Origin: a virus
Length of the DNA stretch: 33,008 bases
Strand: one strand, 5' to 3'
IMG/VR virus record: IMGVR_UViG_3300028835_000859
Location: 1-33,008 of that record
Shown here in pieces: positions 2,593-28,549 of this stretch. The notes beneath the pieces are model-generated. The model saw only the letters and a list, made by a program, of their open reading frames with translations, ran no database searches and was not told the DNA's origin. The position numbers were made by a program, and so were the translations under genes. Numbering within the stretch: position 1 is the stretch's first letter; every line of letters starts with the position of its first letter.

Positions 2593-5500
2593 ATGGCCTG
2601 GACCTACGGCGCACAATTTCAAGTTCGAGATCCTGACGAGCAGGACGAGAACGGCCTGACGTACGGCGAGCAGGTGCCGGTAGCATTCGGCGACTACTCG
2701 AAGGCTACCTATGGCGAGCGGTTCGATGTGCATGACCTTGATCCTATTCAGGGTGCTGAACCAGGCCTTCGCCAGCGACTGCTGTCCAGCGTCGATCTTG
2801 CATCTGAACCTGCCAGCGAGTTCCAGCCCGGTGATCGCAGGTGGGCAGAAAGCAGGTTCGAAGAGGACCAAGAGCGGCCCAAGGTCTACATCAATCACCA
2901 GAAATTTCAGGATGCCGGTGCCAGCGGCTACGAAGGCAAGATGCTGCTGGCCGAGTCGCTGCATAACCTGAAGAACGTCGATCCCGCCCGATACCGAAGA
3001 CTGCAGCGAGCAGCGGCAGAAAGCCCTGAGTACATGAAGTGGGCCAAGGAATCGTATCGTCTATCTCAGGACGAGGGCGAGGAACGGTCATTCGAAGACT
3101 GGCACAGGGTTTCGCGTTTCGACCAGGTCATCGGCGGTTACCTGTTCGCTCAGGATCCCAGCATCCCGACCATGGCCGAGTGGTCCCGTACTGATCTGCC
3201 GTTTGGCGAGGGGCTGACAAAGGAACTGGACGATCTTGAGAAGGCGCTCGGGGCTGAACAGCCGAAGCAAAGCCAGTCGTTCATCATCCGGCGCCCGAGT
3301 CCGGAAGAAGCCGCAGAGTTGCGAGAACGATATGAGACCAAACCATGGGAGCGAATTACATCCGAGGCTGCCGGTGGCGGCATCCTGGGACTGCCATCCA
3401 AGCAGGAAATAATGGAGCGGAAGTATCCGCGTGCCAAGGAGAAAATGCAGGCGATTGAAGATGCGTCCTGGGAAGGTGTCGAAGAAACTGGCTGGGGCGA
3501 GGGATTCTCAAAAACAATGGAGAAGCAACTGCCGAACTACAGGCGGCAGGTGTTCGGCGGTATGCGCGGTGGCAATCCGGTAACCGTCGCAGACCTCGAG
3601 CAAAATGCGATGGCCGAGCAGATGATTACCGGCACCGGACGTATCCAGGATTCAATTGAGAATAACCGCATCGCCAAGGAGTGGGGATTCGAGGAGGGAT
3701 CTGATCGGGTGCCTGAGGGCGTTCATCCAGTCGATGCCTTTGTGGAATGGCTCGGGACTGCTGATGGCCGTGGTGAAACGGAGTTGGTGGCAGCGAGTAC
3801 TCCGGTTGCAGTCATAGCCCAAGATATCTGGGATGCCGAAACACAGACCTGGGACGATGCTGCGCTTCTCGTTAAGCCACACAGCCTGAAATACTATGCG
3901 TTCGGATCGCTGGATGCCTTTCTCAATATGGGCCCAGCGGTGGCGGCCACGTTTTTGACAAAGAATCCCATGGTCGGTGCTGCCATCATGGGAACCCAGG
4001 TCTATGGCCAGACATACGGGACGATGCTGGATCGCGGATATTCGCCAGATCAGGCGAGGGCAGCCGCCGTTTTCTCAGCGCTTGCCGAAACAGTAACCGA
4101 GCGGGTCTCGCTTGGAGTTCTCACCAAGAATAATTTCACCGGGCTGAAACGAATCTTTGCCGGTGCCGGTGCTGAAGGCCTGCAGGAACCAATCACTGAA
4201 GCCCTGCAGATGGGTTACGACGTGGGAATCCTCGGCGATGACATAGGCATGGGCGAGGCCTTCATGCGCCTAGTCGATGCCGGCATCATCGGCTTTGGTG
4301 TTGGCGGCGGCATGGGGGCCACCGTCGAGGCGCTCAATCGTGCGAGTACTCCAGCCGCCCAGGAGGAAGCCAAATACGAACAGCACATGGATGCGCTGCA
4401 TCTCGACCTAACCAAGGCAAATCAAGAGGCGCAGGCGCTTGAAGTCCTCGAGGGGAATACCGAGCTCCTGGATAAGGTGATCAACAATCAGTTGGCAGAT
4501 GTTTCGAATGAGGAACTTGCTGAGCTTGAAGAGCAGAAACTGATCAGGATCGAAGACGATGGCACGATCAAGGCGCTGCCGAAAGCTCGGCGCCAGGTAG
4601 CCAAGGCACAGGTCGAAGTCAGACAGAAGCGCAAGAAGGAGGCACTCAAAGCTCGAGGTGTTAGTGAAGCCGAGGCAGGCCCGACCGTCGAAATCTTGGA
4701 CATGGCGCCTGCGTTTGCAGCGGCCGAAGTCGAGACTGAAATCGACCCGACCGATGCGCAGAAATCTGCTGGCAATTACCGCAAGGGACGTTTCACGTGG
4801 AACGGTGTCGAGGTTGCAATCGAAACGCCAGCTGGCGCAACAAGGTCTGGCGTCGACGAGCAGGGGCGTCCCTGGTCGCAGGTCATGAACTCTGGGTACG
4901 GTTACTTCACATCGAAACCCGGCGCCGACACCGTCGATGGAGAACCGACCGAAGGGGTCGACGCTTACATCGGACCCGACCTGACAGTCCCCACCGTGTA
5001 TGTGATCAACCAGGCGAAGAACCCTCGCCGGGAAGCCGTCGGCGAGAACTTCGATGAACACAAGGTCATGGTCGGCTACCAGTCGCAGCAAGCGGCTCTC
5101 AATGCTTACGCAGAAGACTTTGCGCCGGTTCGTGTAGTCGAGGGCGAAGTCGTTGGCAAGTACCCTGGTGAGCCGCTGGCAGATAACGAGATGGTCGACC
5201 TGTGGTTCGACGATCTTGCGCGCATGACAGAACGCGCGACAGACCTTGAGACGCGCGCCGAGCCGCTCAATTCCGTGGAGGAACTGGAGCTCGAGGAGCT
5301 TCGCGAAGATATCGAGACGCGCCGGACTGACATTGCCGGCGAAGGCTATGACCCAGCCGCGTTGCTTGCCGCACCTAAAGTATCCGTACTCCCCATGCAG
5401 CCGCAGCAGTTCAAGGCGTGGCTCGACAGACCATCGCATGCGCTGCCGGTTTCCCTGGATGATCGTGCCGGCTACGACAAGCTGCCGGTATTCGCTACCG

Positions 5501-8500
5501 TCGAGGCAACTGACCCGACACCTGAGCGCTACCCATCGCGTGGCAAGAAGGTCACTGGAGCGCCACCAGGGAGACGCTCCTTCAAAGACATCGACAAACT
5601 GATCGAGAAAACCGTGGCGATCCTCGAGGATTCGAAACTGATTCCGCCTGAGGCCTGGACCTGGTACGAGGACTCTGGGCGAAAGATTCGAGAGATCACC
5701 CGCAACGACCCGGAACTGATGCACTCCGTGGTCCAGATCCTGGCGGCCACATCGCAGGGTGCTGGCGTAGGCGCGAACACAACCTTCATGATCAAGGGTG
5801 CCTACGCGATCGCCAAGGGCGAGACCAAACCAGAGACCGGCATGTATCCGCAGACCGCCAGCGCGAACATCGAAACGATGGCTAAGCTTGAAACCCAGGA
5901 GATCACCAACCAGCAGCCTGGCATTGGCTCCAAGGTGATGAGCTTCTACCGCAACCTGTACGACGCCACATTCAACACCAACCTGTATCCCGACGATGTC
6001 ACGATTGATCGGTGGATGGTCAGGAATCTGGGCTACACCGCTGGCGATTCGGTCGAGGGTACGCAATACGATTACGCCCGGAAGATATTTCAGGATGCCA
6101 CCGCGCGTTACAACGCGAGGAACGGAACGAACTGGCTGCCGCGGAATGCTCAGGCAGCGCTGTGGGTACACGAGCGATCAAAGGCATCGATGTCGAAGAC
6201 GGGCAAGGTGACCCCGGTCGATGCATTTGCCGAACACATCGAGGCCGTGACCGCAAGAGTCACGCACGAGGCAGTGCCATCGAAGACTACCGAGCAGGGC
6301 CGTCAGGTCGATGTCTTACCGCGGGAAGAGAAGCAGGAACTCGGGCGGCGCCAGCGCGAGGCCTTGGCGGAGAACAATACGCATGTCGTGATGGAAGCAC
6401 TCGGCGTGCCGCTCTACAACGTCGCCACAGCGATCGGCGGTTACGAGGGCATGATCAACCCGAACGAGATTTCGAACATCGTCATGGTCGGTGGCGCTGA
6501 ACTTGACCGGCCGAGGGCAGATGTCTTCTCGCGGATCATGCAGTACATCTATACGCAGGATGCGGTGCCCTGGTTCCGAGCGGAGCGGAAGGCCGCAACC
6601 AGCGAGAAGACCGGCAACTTCGGGCGGAGATACACGCAGGGTATCAACTGGGATCTTCAGGGGCCGCTCAACGAGGATCAGGAAACCATGCTCTTCGATG
6701 CCCTGCGAAAGGCGCTGGGTCCAGACGCTGGGTTCAGCATGGTTGGTGAAGATCAACTAGTAATAATCGATTTCAAAGATGAGAAGGGCGTCACATTTTC
6801 TGGACTTAAACCTGCTGAATTCATTGAAAAAATCGACCAGATAGGGGAAAATATCGGAGCCGATCTTGGAGTTGTTAACAGCCACACTTTCGGCGCTGAG
6901 GGTAACTATTTAACACAGGACTGGGAGACTGACCCCAATGGCCAAAGACTCGAAGAAGCGATTCAAGAGTACGCCAGCACCCGCGGACCACCGGATCTTC
7001 TCGAACGGGTTCGTGCTTGGCGGGAAAGTGCGCAAGGCATCACCCGCGAGTTCCTCAAAGCCGATACCAGGCCGAGGGCGGGGGCAGCCGCACCGATATC
7101 CGTGGCTCGACTCGACGACCGATCCGCGACCGAAGACGCCGTCTTCCAAAGATTCGGGTCAGTAGATCGCACACGAGATACGACCGAAGAGCTTAAGTTC
7201 TATGACCTCACCCCGGTCGTAGAGAATCCCGAACTCACTGATCGCCTGGCCGATTCCTTCGGCTATACGATCGAAGTATTCTCGTTCGAAGCCGATAACT
7301 TCAAGCTGCCCAGACTGGGCAAAAAGAACTACGAGGAAGGGACGGTCTACATCTATGATCCGGCGGCCGCTCACGGGTCATTCAAAGACGAGACCTATAC
7401 CCGCGCCTGGCGAGTCAGCCACGAGATTGCGCACGGCATAACCGAACGCCTGATGCAGGAACGCTACGGTGACTCGAGGCGCTACGGTCGTCTCGGTCGG
7501 CCGATGATGGGCGAGCGCGGTGTGCCGCCGAAGCGCGTGGAGGTCGAGCTCGAGCCGCTGACACTGCTGCAGGCCCAGCGCGCAGTGGAGTGGGAAGATG
7601 TGGCGTTTCGTGTGCAGCGAGTCCTGCTCGACAAGATGGGCATCTCGATCCCTGACTCGGTCTTCAACCAGGAATACAACACCAACATTGCCGACGCCAC
7701 CTTCCGTACTGTGACCGGAGACTTCGCCGATGCTGGCGAGTTCGGATTCAAGCCGTCGGTGTTCAAGCCGACCATCAAGTCGATACTCACCGGGCTGGAG
7801 CGTACCGAGCAGGCCTTGGCCGAAGACCAGGGACGCGAGGCAACCGAGGGCATCGATCTCGCAACCTACAACCAGATCAGCGATGAGCAACTGCAGGAGG
7901 CGATCGATCTCCAGAGCAGGGAGCCAGCCGACAAGCCGCTCTTCTCTGTCGTACCTGGAGTGCCGGCGGACACGAAATGGTACCGCGGCTCGCAGCATGA
8001 GGAGATCAGGCTGCACAGGGAGACCGGCATCGTGCATGCCTCGACCTCTGAGAAAACGGCAAGCGCCTTCGGCCCAGTCAGCGAGGTGACGCTGCATGTG
8101 CAGAACCCGTTCGACTATGAAAACCCGGCGCATGCCAAAGCGCTGAAGGCACAGTTCAGGACCAATGCCCAGCTGATGAAATTCGCGCAGGCACTGGATG
8201 TGGTGCATGGCGGCGAGCGCACCTGGTTGGGCGGTGAAGGCACGCTCGAGGATGTGCGCGAGTATTTCAATGTCGGCCTTGAGATGGGCAACTACCAGAC
8301 GCTCGAGTCGCCGGCAGTGCTGGAGGCTATCCGGGCGATGGGCCATGACTCTGTGTACATGGTCGAGGATGACTTCGGACCCAAGGGCATAGCTGTCTTC
8401 GATGCTGCCCTGATGACCAGGGACGCACCGCTCTTTGCCGTGATCGAGGACGAGGTGTTCCCCGGGTTCTACTCCGGGCTTGCTCGAGCGGCCCGAAACC

Positions 8501-11500
8501 TGAAGCAGGACAAAGGAACCGGCAAGCAGATGCTGGCCATGCTGACCAAGATGCCAGGTGTCAAGGCTGAGGAGCTTGACTGGACCGGCGTACCTGAATA
8601 CCTGAGGGCCAAGGAGACCGTCACCAAGGACCAGTTGATCGCGTTCATCGACGCCAACGGTGTGCGGATCGAAGAAACCAATCTCGGTTACAGAGGGATT
8701 GGGCGTGGTGACATGCCTGAAGATGTCAACTGGAAGAAGGTGCAGGATGCCTACGAAGCCGGCGAGGCCGGAGGCATCATGGACTTGCCGGCTACCCAGC
8801 AAGACATCGGCGGAACGACATTAACCGAAGAACAAATCGAGGTGATTGAGGACAGGGGTTCTGAGTACGTTACCTGGGAGAGCATGACCCCAGGCCAGAA
8901 GAACCAATTCGCCCAGATCGTTTACAAAGTGGACACGACAGGCGCAGCCGTACTCGGGACCGAATATGGTGGCGACAGCGTAACGCTGCCCGGTGGCAAG
9001 AACTATCGCGAGATTCTGCTGAGGCTGCCCGAAAAATCCATCGACATACCGGATGTCTCCAGGGCAGTAGGCTGGCCAACCGATGCAACCATTCGCGATC
9101 TTGATCGGCAGATGCGAGAAAAGTTCAACGAAGGCCTGACGCTCGAGCAGCGCGACTTTCTGCAGGGCGGGGCGCCTGCACAAATCATCGACATGCTGGA
9201 TGACTGGGATGCCAGGCTTGGCATCGATGTGACAATGGCGAGAAGTCAGGTCGCACCGCCTCCTGTATCGATGACGGTACTGCAACTGGAAGAAGGCCCG
9301 GCGACAGAGGACCTTGCCGATGTCCTCATGACCGAACTGCACGAGACGGATATCCCCGTAGAAAAATGGGGTTGGTATAGCGAAGAGGGTCGATTCGAAT
9401 TCGAGAATCTTGATGCCGACGAGTACGACATTGTCTATGAACTGTCGCGAGCGAATGGGGTGCAACTTATCAGCGGCGCACCGGAAGGGGCAGTGCCTCG
9501 CGCCGGCAGGGTCAATGGAGTTATTCAGTTAGGCCCAGGCATCAGCCAAAATGTGTGGAACCAAATCAATAAGCAACTCTATGAGATCGGGCTGAGCGAT
9601 CAGGATGTCACCTGGGAAGATGACGAGCGTCGTTTTTATCTTAATGACGTGTCGCCCACCATGCTGGATCGCGCTAATACCATGGTCGGAAACTATGGCC
9701 TTGCAGCCCTGCAGCAGCCATCAGCAACGACCCCGGTTAAGCGAGCGCCTGCTGGCCGCCGACCGATAGAAACTTACTACGCTGCACACTGGAGCAGCTG
9801 GGCGAACATCCTTGCGAGCATTCGCATCACCGAGCGTATCGGTGAAGATGGCGAGCGCATCATGTTCATCGAGGAGATCCAGAGCGACTGGCACCAGACG
9901 GGCAGGGATGTCGGATATCGGGATCGACCCAGGGGCATGACGCCTGAGAGAGACGACCTCAAGGCAATCAAGAAACCGCTCACCGACACGGCCGACTACT
10001 GGGAAATCAGAACGAAGATCGGGCAGTTTGTTGTCAACGTCACCGCGGTGGATGGCGTCCTCCCAGACGAGAGCGCCGCCATTGATGAGGGCTATCGGCG
10101 ACTGACCCAGGAAACGGAGATTCGCCGTCGAATTGAAAGGGAAGAACGGGGAGCCGTACCCGATGCGCCGTTCAAAGGTAATGCCTGGGCTGAACTCGCG
10201 ATCAAACGAGTCATGCGCCTTGCGGCCGAAGAGGGATTCGATTCGGTTGCCTGGACCACAGGCGAGCAACAGTCAGCGCGGTATAGCCTGAGCAGGGTGC
10301 TTAACAGTCTTTCTGTCTCACCGAGCGCGCTCGAGGGCCGCCCGGATGTCCGTATCGTCTGGCTGGATCCACACATGGGAGATTCGATACAGCTTCAGGT
10401 TAATGCCGATGGCATGATCGAAGACTCGGGCAGGCATGAATTCAAGAACAAAAAACTTTCGGATGTCGTCGGCACTCCCATGGCGAAACAGATCATGGAG
10501 ACCGATAAGCGGATAGAGATCGACGCCGAGAACCTTGACATCGGTGGCCAAGGAATGAAGTCGTTCTACGACAGGACGATTCGCAACCTGGTCAGCAAGG
10601 TCATCAAGAAGCTCGACAATACGATAAAGACCAGCAGCACCAGGATCGACACAAGCGAAGGTCGCGGCGGGCCATACACGGTAGGCCGGTGGCCTGGATC
10701 ACCTCCGCCCGGAACACCTGTGGCCCAAGTAGTTGAAGTCCAACACGCTCAACTGGCAGACCTTGCGGCAGCGGCAAGGCCGATCGACGAAGCTGACTAT
10801 GGTTCGGACAGGCAGATCAACGCCCAGAACAATTTCACGTATACGCTGCAACAGATTTTGCCGAGCGAGCAATGGGAGAACTTTGAAGACTACGCACATC
10901 GGGCTACCCCAGAGGAGATGATCTCCTACGGCATGAGCCTGGCTGCCGCGGATGCTCCGCCGGTTATTATCACTCACGCAGAGATGGGGACGCTTACGGC
11001 CATGGCCGAAGAAGCGCGACGAGAGGCAGAGCAAGGCGCAGATGTGGGTCCTTATCCCACGGCCGATGAAGTTTTCTTTACGGAACTCTATGAATACATA
11101 AGCGAAGACCAGAAGGGCGTGCTTGATGACATAGCTTCTGATCCCGACACTGATCCGGGCGATGTCATCGACACCGGCCTTGGGATGGTCGTCGGGCAGT
11201 CACCAGATGTGGAAGTACCAGTTGCGCCACGAGAAACGGTAGTCTCAGAAGACGAGTTACGCGAGCTTCGAGAACTAGGACGAGCCGCAAGGCCAGCGGA
11301 AGCTGCTGATGAGGGAACGCCAGAACAACAAGACGCGTGGAATACCTTCGTTCGGAAGCTATCGGATACCTTGCCCTCATATGCCTGGGAAACATGGGAA
11401 GAGCGTGACGCCGAAGAAGCCCCCGGCGTTTACGAACTAATTACCTATGGCATTGCCTTGGCAGAAGAGGAGGCATTTACGATAACGCCAGAGATGGTGG

Positions 11501-14500
11501 CCAGACTTGAAAACACAGCGCAAAACGCGAAGCGAATAAACAATGAAGAACCCGACTCACAAAGAGCGCGGAATTCGATGGAAGCATTCTCTGCCGAGCT
11601 TAATGATCTGCTGCCCAGTTTGTCGTGGCAACGATGGTTAGAGCGGGAACCCCGAGGTGTTGACGACGACATTGACTCAGGCCTCAGAATGGCAAGGATG
11701 TTTGCGGGTATGCCTGACGTGGCTGTGGCTGCGCCCGTGCGCGTGGTTGGCGACCAGTGGGGTATTCAAAATACGCAGGGTGAGTGGACAGGTCCGTACG
11801 AGAGCGAAGAGGCTGCGATTGAGGGAGCGGCCCGACGAGACCTCGAGGATCTTGAGGCCGTCCATTTAGTCGACATCTCTGATCAGATGCGAGAGCGCCT
11901 GATCACGGATGGCCTGTCACTGTTTGCCGTGACGCGGCAGCCTGCTGCTGGTGTGCCAGTCGCTAACCTGCAGAGCGTGATCAGCGAGATCCTGGACCTG
12001 TACCCAGGGTCGCCGAACGTGAAGATCGCAGCGACCGAGGGTCACATGCCGAACAAGCAACTGCTTGAGATCAAGCACGCCGGCATGGAAGGCAAGGTCG
12101 GTGGCATGTTTGACCCGGAGACCGGCGATGTCTACCTGATTGCCAGCAACCTGAAGAATATGAAGCAGGCCGTAGAAATCTACCTGCACGAAACGGTGGG
12201 TCACTACGGCGTGCGGTCTATCCTGGGCGCCGAGTACGACACGATCATGGACCAGGTCTGGAAGTCTCACAAAGAGAAGGTCAGGGCGGCCGCTCGGCGG
12301 AATGGCCTGGACGTTAGGATCCCGTCGCAGCGGCGCATCGCCGCGGAAGAGTTCATCGCGTACAGGGCGCAGCGTGTGCTCGCAGGGGAGAAGATACCAG
12401 CCCGTGAGGCATCCTTACTCAAGCGCCTGGTCGAGGCCATACGGATCGCCATAGCGCGCCTGAGGGGCGTCCAGATGTCTGACGCTGACATCCAGCGGCT
12501 GATCAGAAAGGCGCGGATGTTCGTGGCCACGCCGGCAAACAAATCACCGGGGCTGCTGCCTGCTCGCAAGGCGCCGGTCATGTTCGCCAACCTGTGGAAA
12601 GCGATCAACAACGATCGCGTTCCGAACTCCGGGTCGGCCGCGATGTATCGCAAGGAACTGAATGCGCAGGTCCGCGCCGGCAATATCACCGAGGAGGATG
12701 CCGAGCCGCTTGTCTTCTACCTGGCGGAGGCCGCGCACATCGATAAGGGTGGGCTGCTGAACCAGATACGCGAACTCGGAAATCGCAATGCATTCCATGT
12801 CGACGAGTACGAGGGTAGGGCAAACGCTATTGAAACCGGTGACCTCCATGAAAGCTTCACCATGGACGAGGGGTCGCTAACCAGCCGGAGATGGAATTAC
12901 CTGGTCTTCAAAGCGCAGGACAAGTTCATCGACCTGCTGAATGTGCAGAAGGCGATCGAGCTACAGACCGGGCGGCCGATCGATGAGAGTCTTGATGCCT
13001 ACCTGGCTGAGGAATTGTTCCATGGTCAAGTGAAGTCACGAGTTGATCGCTTCGAGAAGGACTACATCCGGCCGCTCACTGAAGCGATCGATGATAGCGA
13101 GTACACCTGGGACGAGGTCGAGTGGTTCCTGTATGCCAGGCACGCACCAGAGGCCAACCGTCGGCTCTATCGCATCAACCGATCTGCCGTTCTGCGACGC
13201 GCGCGTAACAAGGCGAAGCAGAAAGCCGAGGCAAAACTTGAGAAGCGCATTGCCCGGATAGATGCGAACAAAGCCACGCAGCGAAACAAGATCGAAGCCG
13301 AGCATGCCAAGCGACTGGCTGTCATCGAGTCCGAGTACCGGTCACAGATGCGCCGCTCGAAAGAGAGCCAGAAGAAACGGCGTGAGAAAATCGAGACGGC
13401 CAAGGCCAACAAGATCAAGCGCGCCGATGCGAGCAAGAACCAGCGCATCGACAAGCTGGAAACGAAATACAAATACGTTCGTGCCGACTACGAACTCACC
13501 TACCAGGCCGAGATCGAAGAGGCCGATGTATCGTTCCGCGAACGCGAACAGGAGCGGGTCAAAGAAGACCCCGGGCTGCTGGCATTGTCCGGCATGAGCA
13601 ACGCGGATGCAGCCTGGGCGATGGAGGCGCTCGGGGAGAAGGGCGACATCAGTGAGCTTGAAGCGATCGCTGCCCAGGTCGATGCGATGACCGCGCGCAA
13701 CCGAGAGATCATGGTCAACGAAGGCCTCGAGGAGCAGTCGACGATCGACGCCTGGGAGAAGGCCTATCAGTTCTACGTGCCGCTGAAGGGGTTCAAGGAC
13801 GGCCCGATGAACACGACGTTCTTCCCGAAGAAAGGCAAGGGCTACGATACTGGCGGCAAACTGAATCAGCGCCGGCTTGGGCGCCGATCGATGGCGGCTA
13901 ACATCCTGGCCAACATCGTGGCTCAACATCAGTCGGCGGTGGTCGTGGCCGAGAAGTCGAAGGTCGGACGCACGCTTCTTGAGATGGTGAAGAAGCATCC
14001 GAATCCAGACCTCTGGACGGCCAACGAGATCGAGACCAAGAAGCGACTAGATCCGAAGACTGGCCTGGTGATCACTGCAGTAGACCCGACTTACAAGCTC
14101 AGGGACAACGTACTCCGGGTGAAGGTCGACGGCAAGGATTACCACATTACTTTCAATGAAGAGAGCGATGTGGCAATGCGGATCGCCAAGTCGATGAAGA
14201 ACCTGAGTTCCGATGAAATCAACTGGCTGTTCAGGAGCATGCTATCGCTGAACCGAATCCTGTCCGCGGTCAATACGAGCTACAACCCGGAGTTCATCGT
14301 GTCGAACCTGGCGCGTGACCTGCAGACGGCGATGATCAATCTCAATGCCACCGATGCTCAGAACATGAAGATGACGATTCTCAAGGATGTGTTCAAAGCG
14401 CACCGCGGCATCCGGAGATTCCTCGAGCTGCCTAGTTTCAAGGACCCTGAGTCTGCCGACTACTGGAAGCAGCAGTTCGAGGAGTATCGGGATCTCGGTG

Positions 14501-16134
14501 GTCAGGTCGGGTGGCTTGACAATTACAAGGACGTTCAGGATCTTGAGACCTCGCTCTATCGTGATATGCAGGACAAGACTGCCGGCACGCTTTCATGGGC
14601 CACGCTCAGGAAGATGGGCAAATTCATCGAGGCAGAGAATCAGGCGGTCGAGAACGCAGTACGCCTGTCCGCCTTCGTGCATGCAAAGACCGCAGGCCTG
14701 TCTCCTCGGAGGGCGGCATCGCTATCCAAGAACCTGACCGTCAACTTCAATCGTAAGGGCGATATCGGTACGCAACTAAACGCGGTCTACCTGTTCTACA
14801 ACGCATCGATCCAGGGCATGGCCGTCATATGGAATGCGGCCAAGTCACCGAAGGTTCGCAAGATAATGTACGGGATTGTCGCCTTTGCAGCTGGTCTCGA
14901 GATACTCAATCGCATGCTTGCCGGCGACGACGATGATGGCGAGAACCGCTACGACAAGATTCCGGCTTGGGTGAAAGAACGCAACATGATCATCATGATT
15001 CCAGAGCGCTTCCGCAGTCAGTCTCCAGATGATTTCACCGAGCACTACATCACGATTCCGCTGCCTTATGGTTACAACATGCTGCACACTATCGGGCAGA
15101 AGATCGGCGGCATCATCGATTACACGGGGATCGGCAACAAGCGGGAATGGTCGCCGCTTCAGGACAGCTTCGAAATTCTGGCGGCTGCGCTTGGCAGCTT
15201 CAATCCAATCGGCACCGGACCTACTCCGCTGCAGACGATATCGCCAACCGTGCTGACTCCGTTTGTGCAGGTCTCTGAGAATGTCGCCTGGCACGGTGGT
15301 CCGGTCATGCCGTCGGGGAATAAGTACGACCCGGCACCAGAGCCTGAATCGCAGCAGTACTATCGCAGCGTACCCAAGCACGCGATCGCCTTGGCCGAGT
15401 TCCTGAACAAGCTCGGCGGCGGAACGAAAGCACGGCCGGCACCGATCTCACCATTAGACATCTCCCCCGAGACCATTCAGTTAGTCGAAGACTTCCTGAC
15501 TGGCGGTGCCGGTCGCTTCGTTACCAATATGGTCGAGCTCGGGGTCATGGCCAAGGAACGGGAAGTCGACATGCGCAAGGTGCCGTTTGCTCGGCGCTTC
15601 GTTGGCGTGACCGATGAACGGGCCGTGAGCAACAGGTACTACGAGAACCGCACCAGGATCGAGTACGCCATTCAGGAAATCAAGGTCGCCGAGGAAGAGA
15701 TCAAGGTATCCGGTACTCAGGCCGAGCGGGAGGACGCCATCAAGAATCGGGCGCGCATCCTCGAGCAGTACCGTCCAGATGCTGCAATGAAGGAGGCGCT
15801 GCGATTAGTGCAGAAAGGCCTCAGGGATTTGAATGCCACGCGCAAGGCAGTGCGACAAAGCACCCGTGATGAGGACTGGAAGAAGGAGCGGGAGGAGCAG
15901 ATCGAACTGCAGAAGACCAAGCTGATGAACAAGTTCAACAAGCGCTACAACCAGATTCTTGAGAAGCGCCGACAGACCAAGGAAGAGACTGCCATGAATC
16001 CGCAGTTACCAGGTAAGCAGCGACTGGCCGCAGTCCAGCAATTCAACAAGGCCGGCTATCCAGCGACGGCCCGACTGGTCGGATCCCTGCCGGTGAATCC
16101 CGGCACTGACTTCGTGGAGCGATTAAATGCTTGA
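2593..16134 (+). CDS. Giant large polyvalent protein (4,513 residues) with multiple enzyme-like domains
   Basis: A single uninterrupted ORF of 13.5 kb. Regions by approximate residue: 1-50 three TYG repeats; 434-600 hydrophobic/Gly-rich helices; 727-850 pyrophosphatase-like InPase domain (GNYRKGRF...VDAYIGPD...FDEHKVMVGY); 994-1225 helical domain of unknown role; 1610-1614 HEIAH zinc metallopeptidase motif; 1796-1945 ADP-ribosyltransferase-like domain (WYRGS, HASTS, GHDSVYM); 1977-2025 GVKAEELDWTGVPEYL module common in polyvalent proteins; 2425-2570 FIEEIQSDWHQ...WTTGEQQSARY module; 2713-3041 four tandem repeats; 3199-3204 HETVGH metallopeptidase motif with AAEEFIA downstream; 3535-3657 long basic coiled coil; about 3876-4120 LPD38-like segment (NPEFIVSNLARDLQTA) with a hydrophobic helix at about 4080-4110; helical C-terminus. 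Known polyvalent proteins (DarB-like) travel in the virion and act early in the host. The domain names are from memory of those families; the virion delivery is inference. Confidence 0.85.
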   Translation: MAWTYGAQFQVRDPDEQDENGLTYGEQVPVAFGDYSKATYGERFDVHDLDPIQGAEPGLRQRLLSSVDLASEPASEFQPGDRRWAESRFEEDQERPKVYINHQKFQDAGASGYEGKMLLAESLHNLKNVDPARYRRLQRAAAESPEYMKWAKESYRLSQDEGEERSFEDWHRVSRFDQVIGGYLFAQDPSIPTMAEWSRTDLPFGEGLTKELDDLEKALGAEQPKQSQSFIIRRPSPEEAAELRERYETKPWERITSEAAGGGILGLPSKQEIMERKYPRAKEKMQAIEDASWEGVEETGWGEGFSKTMEKQLPNYRRQVFGGMRGGNPVTVADLEQNAMAEQMITGTGRIQDSIENNRIAKEWGFEEGSDRVPEGVHPVDAFVEWLGTADGRGETELVAASTPVAVIAQDIWDAETQTWDDAALLVKPHSLKYYAFGSLDAFLNMGPAVAATFLTKNPMVGAAIMGTQVYGQTYGTMLDRGYSPDQARAAAVFSALAETVTERVSLGVLTKNNFTGLKRIFAGAGAEGLQEPITEALQMGYDVGILGDDIGMGEAFMRLVDAGIIGFGVGGGMGATVEALNRASTPAAQEEAKYEQHMDALHLDLTKANQEAQALEVLEGNTELLDKVINNQLADVSNEELAELEEQKLIRIEDDGTIKALPKARRQVAKAQVEVRQKRKKEALKARGVSEAEAGPTVEILDMAPAFAAAEVETEIDPTDAQKSAGNYRKGRFTWNGVEVAIETPAGATRSGVDEQGRPWSQVMNSGYGYFTSKPGADTVDGEPTEGVDAYIGPDLTVPTVYVINQAKNPRREAVGENFDEHKVMVGYQSQQAALNAYAEDFAPVRVVEGEVVGKYPGEPLADNEMVDLWFDDLARMTERATDLETRAEPLNSVEELELEELREDIETRRTDIAGEGYDPAALLAAPKVSVLPMQPQQFKAWLDRPSHALPVSLDDRAGYDKLPVFATVEATDPTPERYPSRGKKVTGAPPGRRSFKDIDKLIEKTVAILEDSKLIPPEAWTWYEDSGRKIREITRNDPELMHSVVQILAATSQGAGVGANTTFMIKGAYAIAKGETKPETGMYPQTASANIETMAKLETQEITNQQPGIGSKVMSFYRNLYDATFNTNLYPDDVTIDRWMVRNLGYTAGDSVEGTQYDYARKIFQDATARYNARNGTNWLPRNAQAALWVHERSKASMSKTGKVTPVDAFAEHIEAVTARVTHEAVPSKTTEQGRQVDVLPREEKQELGRRQREALAENNTHVVMEALGVPLYNVATAIGGYEGMINPNEISNIVMVGGAELDRPRADVFSRIMQYIYTQDAVPWFRAERKAATSEKTGNFGRRYTQGINWDLQGPLNEDQETMLFDALRKALGPDAGFSMVGEDQLVIIDFKDEKGVTFSGLKPAEFIEKIDQIGENIGADLGVVNSHTFGAEGNYLTQDWETDPNGQRLEEAIQEYASTRGPPDLLERVRAWRESAQGITREFLKADTRPRAGAAAPISVARLDDRSATEDAVFQRFGSVDRTRDTTEELKFYDLTPVVENPELTDRLADSFGYTIEVFSFEADNFKLPRLGKKNYEEGTVYIYDPAAAHGSFKDETYTRAWRVSHEIAHGITERLMQERYGDSRRYGRLGRPMMGERGVPPKRVEVELEPLTLLQAQRAVEWEDVAFRVQRVLLDKMGISIPDSVFNQEYNTNIADATFRTVTGDFADAGEFGFKPSVFKPTIKSILTGLERTEQALAEDQGREATEGIDLATYNQISDEQLQEAIDLQSREPADKPLFSVVPGVPADTKWYRGSQHEEIRLHRETGIVHASTSEKTASAFGPVSEVTLHVQNPFDYENPAHAKALKAQFRTNAQLMKFAQALDVVHGGERTWLGGEGTLEDVREYFNVGLEMGNYQTLESPAVLEAIRAMGHDSVYMVEDDFGPKGIAVFDAALMTRDAPLFAVIEDEVFPGFYSGLARAARNLKQDKGTGKQMLAMLTKMPGVKAEELDWTGVPEYLRAKETVTKDQLIAFIDANGVRIEETNLGYRGIGRGDMPEDVNWKKVQDAYEAGEAGGIMDLPATQQDIGGTTLTEEQIEVIEDRGSEYVTWESMTPGQKNQFAQIVYKVDTTGAAVLGTEYGGDSVTLPGGKNYREILLRLPEKSIDIPDVSRAVGWPTDATIRDLDRQMREKFNEGLTLEQRDFLQGGAPAQIIDMLDDWDARLGIDVTMARSQVAPPPVSMTVLQLEEGPATEDLADVLMTELHETDIPVEKWGWYSEEGRFEFENLDADEYDIVYELSRANGVQLISGAPEGAVPRAGRVNGVIQLGPGISQNVWNQINKQLYEIGLSDQDVTWEDDERRFYLNDVSPTMLDRANTMVGNYGLAALQQPSATTPVKRAPAGRRPIETYYAAHWSSWANILASIRITERIGEDGERIMFIEEIQSDWHQTGRDVGYRDRPRGMTPERDDLKAIKKPLTDTADYWEIRTKIGQFVVNVTAVDGVLPDESAAIDEGYRRLTQETEIRRRIEREERGAVPDAPFKGNAWAELAIKRVMRLAAEEGFDSVAWTTGEQQSARYSLSRVLNSLSVSPSALEGRPDVRIVWLDPHMGDSIQLQVNADGMIEDSGRHEFKNKKLSDVVGTPMAKQIMETDKRIEIDAENLDIGGQGMKSFYDRTIRNLVSKVIKKLDNTIKTSSTRIDTSEGRGGPYTVGRWPGSPPPGTPVAQVVEVQHAQLADLAAAARPIDEADYGSDRQINAQNNFTYTLQQILPSEQWENFEDYAHRATPEEMISYGMSLAAADAPPVIITHAEMGTLTAMAEEARREAEQGADVGPYPTADEVFFTELYEYISEDQKGVLDDIASDPDTDPGDVIDTGLGMVVGQSPDVEVPVAPRETVVSEDELRELRELGRAARPAEAADEGTPEQQDAWNTFVRKLSDTLPSYAWETWEERDAEEAPGVYELITYGIALAEEEAFTITPEMVARLENTAQNAKRINNEEPDSQRARNSMEAFSAELNDLLPSLSWQRWLEREPRGVDDDIDSGLRMARMFAGMPDVAVAAPVRVVGDQWGIQNTQGEWTGPYESEEAAIEGAARRDLEDLEAVHLVDISDQMRERLITDGLSLFAVTRQPAAGVPVANLQSVISEILDLYPGSPNVKIAATEGHMPNKQLLEIKHAGMEGKVGGMFDPETGDVYLIASNLKNMKQAVEIYLHETVGHYGVRSILGAEYDTIMDQVWKSHKEKVRAAARRNGLDVRIPSQRRIAAEEFIAYRAQRVLAGEKIPAREASLLKRLVEAIRIAIARLRGVQMSDADIQRLIRKARMFVATPANKSPGLLPARKAPVMFANLWKAINNDRVPNSGSAAMYRKELNAQVRAGNITEEDAEPLVFYLAEAAHIDKGGLLNQIRELGNRNAFHVDEYEGRANAIETGDLHESFTMDEGSLTSRRWNYLVFKAQDKFIDLLNVQKAIELQTGRPIDESLDAYLAEELFHGQVKSRVDRFEKDYIRPLTEAIDDSEYTWDEVEWFLYARHAPEANRRLYRINRSAVLRRARNKAKQKAEAKLEKRIARIDANKATQRNKIEAEHAKRLAVIESEYRSQMRRSKESQKKRREKIETAKANKIKRADASKNQRIDKLETKYKYVRADYELTYQAEIEEADVSFREREQERVKEDPGLLALSGMSNADAAWAMEALGEKGDISELEAIAAQVDAMTARNREIMVNEGLEEQSTIDAWEKAYQFYVPLKGFKDGPMNTTFFPKKGKGYDTGGKLNQRRLGRRSMAANILANIVAQHQSAVVVAEKSKVGRTLLEMVKKHPNPDLWTANEIETKKRLDPKTGLVITAVDPTYKLRDNVLRVKVDGKDYHITFNEESDVAMRIAKSMKNLSSDEINWLFRSMLSLNRILSAVNTSYNPEFIVSNLARDLQTAMINLNATDAQNMKMTILKDVFKAHRGIRRFLELPSFKDPESADYWKQQFEEYRDLGGQVGWLDNYKDVQDLETSLYRDMQDKTAGTLSWATLRKMGKFIEAENQAVENAVRLSAFVHAKTAGLSPRRAASLSKNLTVNFNRKGDIGTQLNAVYLFYNASIQGMAVIWNAAKSPKVRKIMYGIVAFAAGLEILNRMLAGDDDDGENRYDKIPAWVKERNMIIMIPERFRSQSPDDFTEHYITIPLPYGYNMLHTIGQKIGGIIDYTGIGNKREWSPLQDSFEILAAALGSFNPIGTGPTPLQTISPTVLTPFVQVSENVAWHGGPVMPSGNKYDPAPEPESQQYYRSVPKHAIALAEFLNKLGGGTKARPAPISPLDISPETIQLVEDFLTGGAGRFVTNMVELGVMAKEREVDMRKVPFARRFVGVTDERAVSNRYYENRTRIEYAIQEIKVAEEEIKVSGTQAEREDAIKNRARILEQYRPDAAMKEALRLVQKGLRDLNATRKAVRQSTRDEDWKKEREEQIELQKTKLMNKFNKRYNQILEKRRQTKEETAMNPQLPGKQRLAAVQQFNKAGYPATARLVGSLPVNPGTDFVERLNA
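10729..11715 (+). repeat. Four degenerate tandem protein repeats inside the polyvalent protein
   Basis: Residues about 2713-3041 of the giant protein hold four copies of a module of about 76-92 residues, beginning near residues 2713, 2789, 2881 and 2962. Each has a helix with Leu/Ala spacing, a variable linker, then L...LPS..W..W/F (copies 1, 3 and 4: LPSEQWENF, LPSYAWETW, LPSLSWQRW; copy 2 diverged to YISEDQKGV) and an ending like I.YG..LA or I..GL.M. The DNA copies are not similar enough to be called a nucleotide repeat; the repetition is visible only at protein level. Confidence 0.65.
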
Positions 16135-25516: not shown

Positions 25517-25841
25517 GGCGATGCTGGTGTGGGTCCAGCTGGCTGAAATCTACGGCAAGGCGCTGTATCGGGAGCATGGCTCCGAGCCGCCGGCACTCTG
25601 GCTCCAGGCTATTGATCTGCTCGGTGACGAGGAGATTCAGCGTGGACTGAAGAACCTGGCGGAAGAGGCGCTCGCGTACCCAGCCAACCTCGGCCAGTTC
25701 GTTGAGTCCTGTCAGCGCATTCCTGAGGGCCGTCCCTGGCTGAACCAACCGAAGCAGATCGAGGACGATAGGCCACGCGGCACGATGTCATACGCCGAAT
25801 GGAAACGACAGAATGGTATCCCAGAACCCACAGCAGATTGA
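25437..25841 (+). CDS. Lambda P-like helicase-loader candidate (134 aa)
   Basis: GTG 25437 has GAGG (25426-25429) about 7 bases upstream and lies 80 bases inside the previous gene; an ATG at 25521 is an alternative but has almost no spacer. Residues about 30-85 contain LVWVQLAEIYGKALYREHG, EEIQRGLKNLAEEAL and YPANLGQFVESC, the W...F...GI...G......NR...PSPGQFV..C layout of lambda P. P takes the host DnaB helicase to the origin. The protein is shorter than lambda P (233 aa). The family call is from pattern only, supported by location behind a DUF1376 initiator. Confidence 0.5.
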   Translation: MKKLSELVPKHLMTSTPGIERKPDSTRAMLVWVQLAEIYGKALYREHGSEPPALWLQAIDLLGDEEIQRGLKNLAEEALAYPANLGQFVESCQRIPEGRPWLNQPKQIEDDRPRGTMSYAEWKRQNGIPEPTAD

Positions 25842-26556
25842 GCCTCGCAAAGAGACGCTACCGATCATCGCCTACAAGGGCGGGTTCGAATTACTGGATG
25901 CGAAATGGGACCTGAGTTCCGGGCGTACGGTCAAGTTCAGGCTAATGGAGGAACCGCGGCGGCCGCTGCTGATGCATCCGTTCGCGCAGTTTGTCCGGCG
26001 CCGAGGTGGCAGGGTAGGCACCAGGTTCCTGATGGTCATGACGGTGATTGGAAAGGACGAGCCGATGTTCAACGGTGAGCTTATGCTGATGTCCGGCGGC
26101 CAGCCCCTGGCCCAGGGATTCTGGGTATCATTCTGGCTGGACGATGAGACCGACCATCATCCGTTCGCCGGCTACCGCGGCAGGAAAGGTGACCGGCCGG
26201 GCGACATGTTCTCGGCCGCCTTCGTGGAGCTTGATGACGATGACTCGGCTATCGACCAGGACAAGCGCGGCAAGGTAGAAGACGCACATGCCCGGGCTGG
26301 ACAGAAGCTCAGTCAGTACTGCTACCTGCTGTGCAACAATGAGATGTTTATCCTCTACCTCGAGGAGCGCGCCCTGGTGAACAACAAAGCACGATCGATC
26401 CACTGGTGGGCAAAGGAGAACCGCGTCGCCCGGTGGGTGCGCTGGCGATGCGACATCGAATCAAGGTCAGATCTTGACAACAACCCTGCTGCGGCTAAAA
26501 TTTTCCATGAGCAGATACGTGAACCGTATGCAGACTGGCGGAGTGTGAATGAATGA
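25813..26556 (+). CDS. Conserved-looking phage protein of unknown function (247 aa)
   Basis: ATG 25813 lies 29 bases inside the preceding gene. The protein appears to be a single folded domain: AYKGGFELLDAKWDLSSG, KFRLMEEPRRPLLMHPFAQF, GVSFWLDDETDHHPFAGYRG-like central part, then FVELDDDDSAIDQD and a C-terminal helical part with IESRSDLDNNPAAAKIF and REPYADW. I have a faint memory of this pattern in other phage replication regions but no named family or activity. Its stop overlaps both start codons of the methyltransferase locus (AATGAATGAG). Confidence 0.65.
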   Translation: MVSQNPQQIEPRKETLPIIAYKGGFELLDAKWDLSSGRTVKFRLMEEPRRPLLMHPFAQFVRRRGGRVGTRFLMVMTVIGKDEPMFNGELMLMSGGQPLAQGFWVSFWLDDETDHHPFAGYRGRKGDRPGDMFSAAFVELDDDDSAIDQDKRGKVEDAHARAGQKLSQYCYLLCNNEMFILYLEERALVNNKARSIHWWAKENRVARWVRWRCDIESRSDLDNNPAAAKIFHEQIREPYADWRSVNE

Positions 26557-28549
26557 GTTGGCATTATTTGCGGGAGCGGGGGGCGGACTTCTCGCTTCCA
26601 AATTACTTGGATGGACTACGATCGCAGCCTGCGAGATCGATGAGTATTGTCGGCAGGTCATCCTTACTCGTCAGGCCGAAGGATATCTCGAGCGCTTCCC
26701 TATCTGGGATGACGTCAAGTCCTTCGACGGGCGACCTTTTCGGGGACTTGTTGATGTCATTACCGGAGGGTTCCCCTGCCAGGACATCAGTTCAGCTGGT
26801 CGTGGAGTGGGCATTACCGGCGAGCGTAGCGGCCTGTGGTTTGAGTATCTCCGACTTATTGGAGAGATTGGGCCTCGGTTTGTATTCGCCGAAAACGTCC
26901 CGATGCTCCGTACCCGTGGCCTTGGCACCGTCATATCAGGCCTTGCCGAACTGGGGTATGACGTACGATGGTGTGTGCTGGGAGCTTGGCATGTCGGCGC
27001 GCCCCATCGAAGAAACAGAATGTGGGTCCTCGCTGTGCGAAGGGAGGAATCATCATGTGCCGACACCGACGACCCAGGATCACATCGAGAGGGAGTCGAC
27101 CAGCACGGAGACGCTGAACTACGAGACCAACAAGTCAGTGAGCCTGGATCGCTGGGCAAAACAGTGGCCGACACCGAAAGCGATGGACGCAGATCGGACA
27201 TCGGTAATGACGCAGACCAGGTACAACAATCGGACGGGGCGAAAAAATCTCAAGTCAGAGGTGGGGAATTCACTGATGTGGCCGACGCCCGGAGCTCAGG
27301 AATCGCAGCCGACTCAGGAGATGATCGACGAGATCAAGGAGAACCAGGACAAGACACACGAGCGATTGTACCTTCCGGGTCGCAAGCACCACACGCAGCG
27401 GACGCTGTCGCGAGCGGTGCAGACTTGGCCGACACCAACCTCGAGCGTGGGCAGCGGCTCGAGGAACACGCCCGGCAGCAAGGCGCACCCAGGTCTCAGC
27501 CTGGACGACGCCGTCCGCGGCGACGGGGGAACGGGCAGGGGCCCAAGGAAGCCGGTGATAGGGACGCCAACCAGCATGGACTCGAGGGGCAAGGGGAGCA
27601 AGAGATCGGAGGCATTCAGGAGGGACACGGCGCCGACGCCGGCGGAGTTTGTGGAGCAGTTCCCGACGCCGACAGCCGGAGGCGGGGGCGGGACGAGCAG
27701 GAGCGGGGATCGTCAGGACGAGACCCCAAGCCTCCAGGGAATGGCTCGCAAGGGGACCTGGCCGACGCCAACGGCGAGGGACAGACACACCGACAAGAAG
27801 CTGACCAGGGGAGCGAACGCAGTTCCGGGCGGGACGCCTCTGATACTTGCGGTCCAACAGAAGGCAGCGAAGGATGCGGAACTGTACCCAACGCCAACGA
27901 GTTCGATGATGACAAAGGGCGACATGGAGCAGGCGAAGTATTCATCGAGCGATCCACGCCGCCCGAGTTACGAGGAGGCGAATCAGATGTTCCCGACGCC
28001 GACCTCGCAGGATCACAAGGGGCGGGGAGCGGGGAGCTACGATCGGCACAAGGGTCTGGACAATCACATGAAACTATTCCCGACGCCGAATGCATCGGAC
28101 GGGAATCAGGGGGGTACGACTCAGGGAAACCGGAAGTCGCCGAACCTCTCGATCACAGTGCATCAGCAATGGCCGACGCCGAATGCCAGGGATCACAAGG
28201 ACACGGGCGAGAACACGGATTACGAGAAGGTGGCGGCGAAGAGCAAGCTCGCCGGGGCGGTGCAGGTTTGGCCGACGCCGGCAGCGCACGAGGGGAGACT
28301 GGGTTACCAGGACAGGACCCGCGGCAAGAAGGGCAGCCAGAAATCCTTGACTACGGAGATCATCGATTCGGAGGGGGGGAGGCAGGCGACTACTGGACAA
28401 TTGAACCCGACGTGGGTCGAGTGGCTCATGGGGTGGCCTCTCGGGTGGACAGACTTAAAGCCATTGGAAACGGACAGGTTCCACTGGTGGCTGCACAAGC
28501 ATGGGCTATTCTGAGCTCGTCCCTGTCAGCCGGCACGAGAAAACCCTGA
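26549..28549 (+). CDS. C5 cytosine DNA methyltransferase with very large hydrophilic insert (frame A)
   Basis: A 666-residue protein. The N-terminal 165 residues are a clear C5 methyltransferase: motif I LALFAGAGGG (SAM binding), CEIDEY (motif II), DD (54-55), GGFPCQD (motif IV, catalytic Cys77), FAENVPML (motif VI, Glu115) and APHRRNRMWVLA (motif VIII). The extreme C-terminus has EPDVGRVAHGVASRVD and RLKAIGNGQVPLVA (motifs IX/X). In between lie about 450 residues rich in D, G, E, Q, R and S, almost without aromatics, punctuated by VADA/VPDA/LADA words; this does not look like a normal target-recognition domain. The same bases encode frame B. ATG 26549 has GGAG (26540-26543) five bases upstream. 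Expected role: methylation of phage DNA against restriction. Confidence 0.85.
   Translation: MNELALFAGAGGGLLASKLLGWTTIAACEIDEYCRQVILTRQAEGYLERFPIWDDVKSFDGRPFRGLVDVITGGFPCQDISSAGRGVGITGERSGLWFEYLRLIGEIGPRFVFAENVPMLRTRGLGTVISGLAELGYDVRWCVLGAWHVGAPHRRNRMWVLAVRREESSCADTDDPGSHREGVDQHGDAELRDQQVSEPGSLGKTVADTESDGRRSDIGNDADQVQQSDGAKKSQVRGGEFTDVADARSSGIAADSGDDRRDQGEPGQDTRAIVPSGSQAPHAADAVASGADLADTNLERGQRLEEHARQQGAPRSQPGRRRPRRRGNGQGPKEAGDRDANQHGLEGQGEQEIGGIQEGHGADAGGVCGAVPDADSRRRGRDEQERGSSGRDPKPPGNGSQGDLADANGEGQTHRQEADQGSERSSGRDASDTCGPTEGSEGCGTVPNANEFDDDKGRHGAGEVFIERSTPPELRGGESDVPDADLAGSQGAGSGELRSAQGSGQSHETIPDAECIGRESGGYDSGKPEVAEPLDHSASAMADAECQGSQGHGREHGLREGGGEEQARRGGAGLADAGSARGETGLPGQDPRQEGQPEILDYGDHRFGGGEAGDYWTIEPDVGRVAHGVASRVDRLKAIGNGQVPLVAAQAWAILSSSLSAGTRKP
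26553..28514 (+). CDS. Overprinted partner ORF of the methyltransferase (frame B, 653 aa, PTP-repeat protein)
   Basis: A 653-codon ORF in the +1 frame of the methyltransferase, starting at ATG 26553, nine bases after the same GGAG. It is not a random shadow: it has a balanced composition with W/F/Y, contains LPEGSPARTS, YQALPNWGMTYDG and ECGSS near residues 70-165, thirteen PTP words (VPTPT, WPTPK, WPTPT, FPTPT, YPTPT, WPTPN, WPTPA), GSRNTPGSKAHPGLSLDDAV, and a C-terminus LNPTWVEWLMGWPLGWTDL. I know these strings from phage and plasmid proteins usually labelled as hypothetical or as methyltransferase C-terminal pieces; LNP.WVEWLMG.P resembles the LTPRE..RLMGFP motif of C5 enzymes. It may be a second subunit or target-recognition partner. 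It could still be a conserved shadow. Confidence 0.6.
   Translation: MSWHYLRERGADFSLPNYLDGLRSQPARSMSIVGRSSLLVRPKDISSASLSGMTSSPSTGDLFGDLLMSLPEGSPARTSVQLVVEWALPASVAACGLSISDLLERLGLGLYSPKTSRCSVPVALAPSYQALPNWGMTYDGVCWELGMSARPIEETECGSSLCEGRNHHVPTPTTQDHIERESTSTETLNYETNKSVSLDRWAKQWPTPKAMDADRTSVMTQTRYNNRTGRKNLKSEVGNSLMWPTPGAQESQPTQEMIDEIKENQDKTHERLYLPGRKHHTQRTLSRAVQTWPTPTSSVGSGSRNTPGSKAHPGLSLDDAVRGDGGTGRGPRKPVIGTPTSMDSRGKGSKRSEAFRRDTAPTPAEFVEQFPTPTAGGGGGTSRSGDRQDETPSLQGMARKGTWPTPTARDRHTDKKLTRGANAVPGGTPLILAVQQKAAKDAELYPTPTSSMMTKGDMEQAKYSSSDPRRPSYEEANQMFPTPTSQDHKGRGAGSYDRHKGLDNHMKLFPTPNASDGNQGGTTQGNRKSPNLSITVHQQWPTPNARDHKDTGENTDYEKVAAKSKLAGAVQVWPTPAAHEGRLGYQDRTRGKKGSQKSLTTEIIDSEGGRQATTGQLNPTWVEWLMGWPLGWTDLKPLETDRFHWWLHKHGLF
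27057..28290 (+). repeat. Dispersed CCGACGCC-type words encoding PTP (frame B) and ADA (frame A)
   Basis: Thirteen degenerate copies of a word close to GGCCGACGCC, at roughly 27057, 27165, 27278, 27425, 27559, 27630, 27661, 27762, 27886, 27992, 28078, 28170 and 28269, about 30-150 bases apart. Read in frame B each gives [WFYV]PTP[TNA]; read in frame A each gives [VLIM][AP]D[AT]. The repeated unit is therefore meaningful in both frames. Confidence 0.7.

Follow-up and report, generated by a model that had tools for sequence, protein, structure and literature searches.

Known C5-cytosine DNA methyltransferases carry motif IX in their small domain, and in the two-subunit enzyme M.EcoHK31I the small subunit is nested in another frame of the large subunit's gene. 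The Bacillus phages SPR, phi3T, and rho11s encode C5-methyltransferases in which several target-recognition domains of ~40 amino acids (aa) stand side by side between motifs VIII and IX, and for M.AquI we know of no long overlap of frames. The larger subunit of M.EcoHK31I bears motifs I-VIII and X with a predicted recognition domain and its smaller subunit bears only motif IX, and M.AquI is split between its subunits inside the variable region (PMC3404938). Here we analyze a locus in a 33,008-base IMG/VR virus record (IMGVR_UViG_3300028835_000859, the whole of which is referred to as the window), where frame A (26549..28549, + strand, 666 aa) encodes the alpha chain of a C5-cytosine DNA methyltransferase and frame B (26553..28514, + strand, 653 aa), read in A's +1 frame, encodes a putative beta chain composed of an N-terminal half, a module array, and motif IX. 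M.EcoHK31I and M.EaeI are the closest known system: compared by motif allocation and not by beta sequence, the window shares their division into I-VIII plus X on one chain and IX on the other, and as in the M.EcoHK31I kind the second chain lies in another frame inside the large chain's gene (26553-28514 within 26549-28549). Unlike in M.EcoHK31I, the window's beta chain approaches alpha in length, begins 4 nucleotides (nt) after it, covers motifs I-VIII as well, and contains a variable array of exchangeable modules; this array in the overprinted subunit is what is new relative to the known two-chain kind. In contrast to M.AquI, the window's alpha chain retains motif X. The likeness to the SPR, phi3T, and rho11s enzymes, drawn by description only, lies in serial small units within a phage enzyme, whereas those enzymes are single chains without overprinting. 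Full-text literature searches of partial coverage turned up no publication that describes overlapping phage C5-methyltransferases; because of that coverage, and because some of the public phage records examined annotate both frames (most annotate one), prior notice elsewhere, for example in REBASE, is possible.

Frame A is a C5-methyltransferase at both of its ends. PF00145 matched it (E 2.4e-34) at residues 4-212 only, which hold motifs I-VIII, and the match stops at profile position 195 of 324; phrog_363 matched as well, phmmer aligned the frame to M.HhaI over residues 4-166 (E 6.5e-12), and the M.HhaI and M.HaeIII matches together span residues 1-166. Motif I (LFAGAGGG, 26564..26587), motif IV with the catalytic PCQ loop (GGFPCQDIS, 26765..26791, of which the frame B reading is GSPARTS), motif VI with its ENV (FAENV, 26885..26899), and the motif VIII region (HVGAPHRRNRMWV, 26990..27028) follow in order on the + strand. 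At the far end, residues 612-656 (the last 45 residues) matched phrog_32758 and contain motif X with its GNxxxP signature, RLKAIGNGQVP (RVDRLKAIGNGQVP, 28442..28483, + strand). The ~450 residues between the two matched ends are rich in D, G, R, A, and Q, with recurring VADT and VPDA words, and neither the PF00145 match nor the motif scan placed a motif IX in frame A.

That motif is found in frame B. The stretch LNPTWVEWLMGWPLGWTDL (28401..28457, + strand), near the frame's C-terminus, is nearly invariant across the family, with invariant LNPxWVExxMG columns, and frame A's motif X overlaps it and extends just 3' of it. It was identified as the motif IX that A lacks because two Rickettsiales relatives, L241 and L234, hold the same motif in their methyltransferase frame, which matches PF00145 end to end (profile 2-322 of 324), and because the L241 counterpart aligns to M.HhaI LHPRECARVMGYPDSY; phmmer aligned the L241-type chain ERLNPDWVEWLMGYPISW...GNSVV to M.HhaI RKLHPRECARVMGYPDSY...GNSVV, the second stretch being weak alone but in the right register. 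Frame B as a whole matched phrog_1008, a 'DNA methyltransferase' family (E 1e-34), and phrog_26627 (E 9e-17), families that are silent on overlap, motif allocation, and module exchange; it matched no Pfam or NCBIfam family, and the beta profile gave no credible match among PDB sequences. Its N-terminal half has a conserved core (SPKTSRCSV ... LPNWGMTYDGVCWELG, 26886..26990, + strand) that overlaps A motifs VI-VIII and shows near-invariant W/T, P, and G columns in the beta alignment. Between this half and motif IX lies an array of ~12 modules of ~35 aa each, starting W/F/Y/V/G-PTP or GTP (27057..28400, + strand; boundaries m1-m13, with m5 and m6 probably one), over which frame A is a neutral read-through. 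The original prediction, which was made from the sequence alone, had proposed an enzyme and an overprinted partner of the M.EcoHK31I type. Its frame coordinates, lengths, and shared strand proved exact, its quoted peptide strings were all found in the translations, the methyltransferase motifs it saw at both ends of A are those described above, and its 'repeated PTP words' in B are the module array. The proposal itself is supported, as the partner carries a C5-methyltransferase motif whose counterpart in relatives aligns to M.HhaI; the exchangeable modules, the neutral read-through in A's middle, and the change of frame by motifs between lineages go beyond it.

Frame B might be an artefact of base composition and of repeats in A, since A's middle is composition-biased, which leaves fewer stops in the other frame, and its GGCCGACACC repeats read VADT in A and WPTP in B. 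Chance was evaluated with 2000 synonymous-codon shuffles that kept one frame's protein and codon content fixed. With A fixed, the +1 frame averaged 253 codons and peaked at 530, so that 653 codons were reached in 0/2000 shuffles; with B fixed, A's frame was open in 0/2000 (mean 110, maximum 224), and the third frame was in the window as it was in the shuffles (849/2000). Viral contigs were then scanned with the N-terminal part of frame A only, a search blind to B that yielded 80 loci, 74 of them non-redundant. The +1-frame B open reading frame (ORF) was kept in 80/80, so that B repeatedly broken while A stays intact, which would have told against a selected partner, was not seen. Stops in the +1 frame of the 74 loci numbered 9, against 351 expected under synonymous shuffling, and those in the third (+2) frame 1058, against 943 expected. 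When bacteria and archaea, each species represented by a single genome, were scanned with the B profile, hits came from Pseudomonadota, Verrucomicrobiota, Planctomycetota, Spirochaetota, Bacillota, Patescibacteria, and further taxa, with A overlapping in every case. Taking all scans together, the +1 B frame was present in 299/299 non-redundant loci, which derive from phages, prophages, and the genomes of bacteria from many phyla. Dual coding is thus evidently ancient. An origin in sequence errors was rejected because the layout recurs across hundreds of independent assemblies.

Several loci in this set depart from the simple pair. In L195, L196, L155, L140, and L210, alpha has one in-frame stop (TAA, TAG, or TGA) between VIII and X and beta is intact; these are possibly three-chain versions, or cases of readthrough or decay. 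A Pseudodesulfovibrio genome bin (L237, 2827-4731) contains a tandem pair of alpha/beta overlaps, and L348 and L349 each have two methyltransferases in tandem.

Selection was estimated by region with an OLGenie-like count, run on 67 and 88 independent pairs, in which each substitution was sorted according to what it changed in either frame. Over motifs I-VIII, omega_A was 0.27 and omega_B 0.74 [0.69-0.78], so A is strongly and B moderately constrained there. In the module region the values were reversed, with omega_B at 0.46 [0.43-0.50] and omega_A at 1.01 [0.93-1.09], and at the IX/X end both frames were constrained (0.42 and 0.41). The control, in which the third frame served as partner, gave ratios of 1.3-2.4. 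Across the whole gene, changes synonymous in A occurred at 0.30 per site where they altered B and at 0.74 where they left B unaltered. The purifying selection on B that had been named as a check on the original prediction was therefore found in every region. From these values, A's middle is a neutral stop-free filler and B's middle the selected product, and the converse holds, less absolutely, over the catalytic motifs. Selection in the repeats thus favours B and not A. Stops are depleted in relatives, no shuffle reproduced the frame, and in some loci B's modules stand without any overlap by A; the composition artefact was rejected on the shuffles and the selection tests, and we give it next to no credence.

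The window's array is the longest found with certainty; by the same crude pattern count, relatives have 0-7 modules, mostly 1-5. Loci L012, L013, and L014 share the window's backbone and flanking modules and are missing several of the middle ones, window modules m7 and m10 correspond to m6 and m5 of L014 with their order reversed, and L064, whose beta N-terminal part is 36% identical to the window's, follows the sequence m2, m13, m9 of window modules. A comparison of 591 modules, drawn from 218 loci, turned up pairs of 85-96% identity located in backbones of 28-42% identity. Because modules are deleted, added, and reordered among close relatives, and because near-identical modules occur in otherwise unrelated backbones, they behave as cassettes that are exchanged between loci, and the same pattern suggests that their function is target recognition. 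A larger array may be present in the actinophage-like L366 (2853-6211), where two long frames carry 8 and 9 PTP modules, if these form one system.

The allocation of motifs to frames changes among lineages. In most loci A holds I-VIII and X and B holds the modules and IX, but in L063, L094, L218, L220, L294, L351, L370, and L376 motif X is in B, which then carries modules, IX, and X, and A is without X and usually ends soon after VIII; L131 and L171 belong to the same class by eye. In loci whose A frame terminates past VIII, B reads the modules and IX free of any overlap with A. On a tree of alpha motifs I-VIII (a quick tree with long branches present), the 8 X-in-B loci require 8 changes, of which at least 5 are forced by well-supported branches. 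Motif IX is in A in two other groups, the Rickettsiales loci L241 and L234 and some actinophages. In actinophages such as Filuzino, Babsiella, and others, a single chain comprises I-VIII, LPTP modules, IX, and X, and a shorter B frame still overlaps VIII. A model of one such chain (L363) had a predicted local distance difference test (pLDDT) score of 73 and a predicted template modelling (pTM) score of 0.75 and matched M.HaeIII and M.HhaI at E ~1e-14, and profile comparison linked B's modules and IX to the actinophage single chain with 98% probability. The regular-expression motif classes mis-sort some of the 299 loci: in most of those classed as X in A and no motif in B, a degenerate IX is present in the B frame, and in some actinophages IX belongs to A. 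The movement of X from A to B in at least 5 lineages, with IX in A in two groups, indicates that the two chains act as parts of one enzyme. A natural fusion of another sort occurs in L016 (2998-4650), where the beta frame runs stop-free into a second, amino-type methyltransferase with a TSPPYW motif.

Programmed frameshifting could instead fuse the frames into one methyltransferase chain, with I-VIII from A, the modules and IX from B, and X from A or B, and both the order of motifs on the DNA, which matches that of a single-chain enzyme, and the natural occurrence of single-chain fusions are in keeping with it. Yet beta has a start of its own 4 nt past alpha's (an NTG start for A and an ATG for B at +4) in 166 of 274 non-redundant loci, and its N-terminal half, which would lie outside any frameshift product, is under purifying selection. 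The common layout would further require a shift in one direction and, ~1.4 kb on in the window, a second in the opposite direction, and A is stop-free, though neutral, through the modules, as is needed only if A is read on to X. We therefore consider frameshifting improbable.

We favor the reading that the two overlapping frames specify the two chains of a single heterodimeric C5-cytosine DNA methyltransferase, with the modules probably choosing its targets, and assign it a probability of roughly 0.8. Alpha would fold the large catalytic domain from motifs I-VIII (S-adenosylmethionine binding, the PCQ nucleophile, and ENV), and motif X, at its far C-terminus past the long neutral linker, would complete that domain. 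Beta would provide in trans the small, DNA-facing domain, consisting of motif IX and a string of interchangeable target-recognition modules of ~35 aa, so that several modules could give several specificities. The start region reads GGAG-TGTGA-ATGAATGA, including the stop of the upstream ORF (25813-26556): a Shine-Dalgarno-like GGAG (26540..26543, + strand), which may serve both frames, lies 5 nt 5' of the A start and 9 nt 5' of the B start, and ATGAATGA (26549..26556, + strand) interleaves the A start (26549), the B start (26553), and the upstream stop. Because the two starts are 4 nt apart, coupled production of both chains from a single ribosome-binding site is possible, and the overlapping stop of the upstream gene may contribute to it. 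The role for the phage would most likely be methylation of its own DNA at several sequences and thereby evasion of host restriction.

Several points weigh against this heterodimer. Beta as a translated protein is deduced from sequence, omega_B over motifs I-VIII is just moderately below 1, and the selection counts carry no correction for multiple hits. The AlphaFold2 model of the beta chain alone (L024, 119-row alignment) was poor, with a mean pLDDT of 57 and a pTM of 0.26, and the fold thus gives no support for a small domain or for modules; the module in the single-chain L363 model was also of low confidence. In M.EcoHK31I, moreover, the recognition domain is predicted in the large subunit and not with motif IX (PMC3404938). 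The last three observations also lend something to another explanation, in which beta is a real motif IX subunit and the modules serve as a spacer, whether flexible or multivalent, or engage host proteins as a decoy or binding surface, with target choice elsewhere. No recognition domain of the M.EcoHK31I type was found in the window's large subunit, however: constraint falls on B's modules (0.46), whereas the stretch of alpha from VIII to X evolves neutrally (1.01), so that specificity in A's middle is unlikely, and the modules, which are swapped as cassettes, stand where the variable region belongs, after VIII and before IX. We regard the spacer or decoy explanation as unlikely, and target choice by the modules of a heterodimer as the better account.

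Other genes of the window include a 4513-aa ORF (2593-16134, +) that takes up 41% of the record, carries an inorganic-pyrophosphatase-like domain (PF18823) and LPD38 (PF18857), and resembles very large phage 'polyvalent' and DarB-like proteins. A YqaJ-type exonuclease (PF09588; 22852-23547, -) and RecT (PF03837; 23540-24679, -) are also encoded there, as is a RusA-like resolvase (PF05866; 28749-29327, +).

In its broadest form, our proposal is of a widespread viral enzyme in which the overprinted subunit chooses the target, frame B cassettes are gained, lost, and shuffled as a combinatorial specificity code, the catalytic chain reaches its last motif by way of a stop-free linker that evolves neutrally, and motifs IX and X switch frames over evolutionary time; we hold this at even odds. 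In prokaryotes there are few documented cases of long same-strand overlaps in which both products are clearly under selection; this one is present in hundreds of independent copies in phages and bacterial phyla. These copies form a natural experiment in how constraint is shared between frames, falling strongly on A in the catalytic motifs, on B in the modules, and equally on both at the IX/X end. Since gene callers usually report one chain, annotations of phage 'DNA methyltransferases' may in many cases describe only half of the enzyme, and if the modules are recognition units, they would amount to a ready-made stock of short cytosine-methylation specificities that can be swapped.

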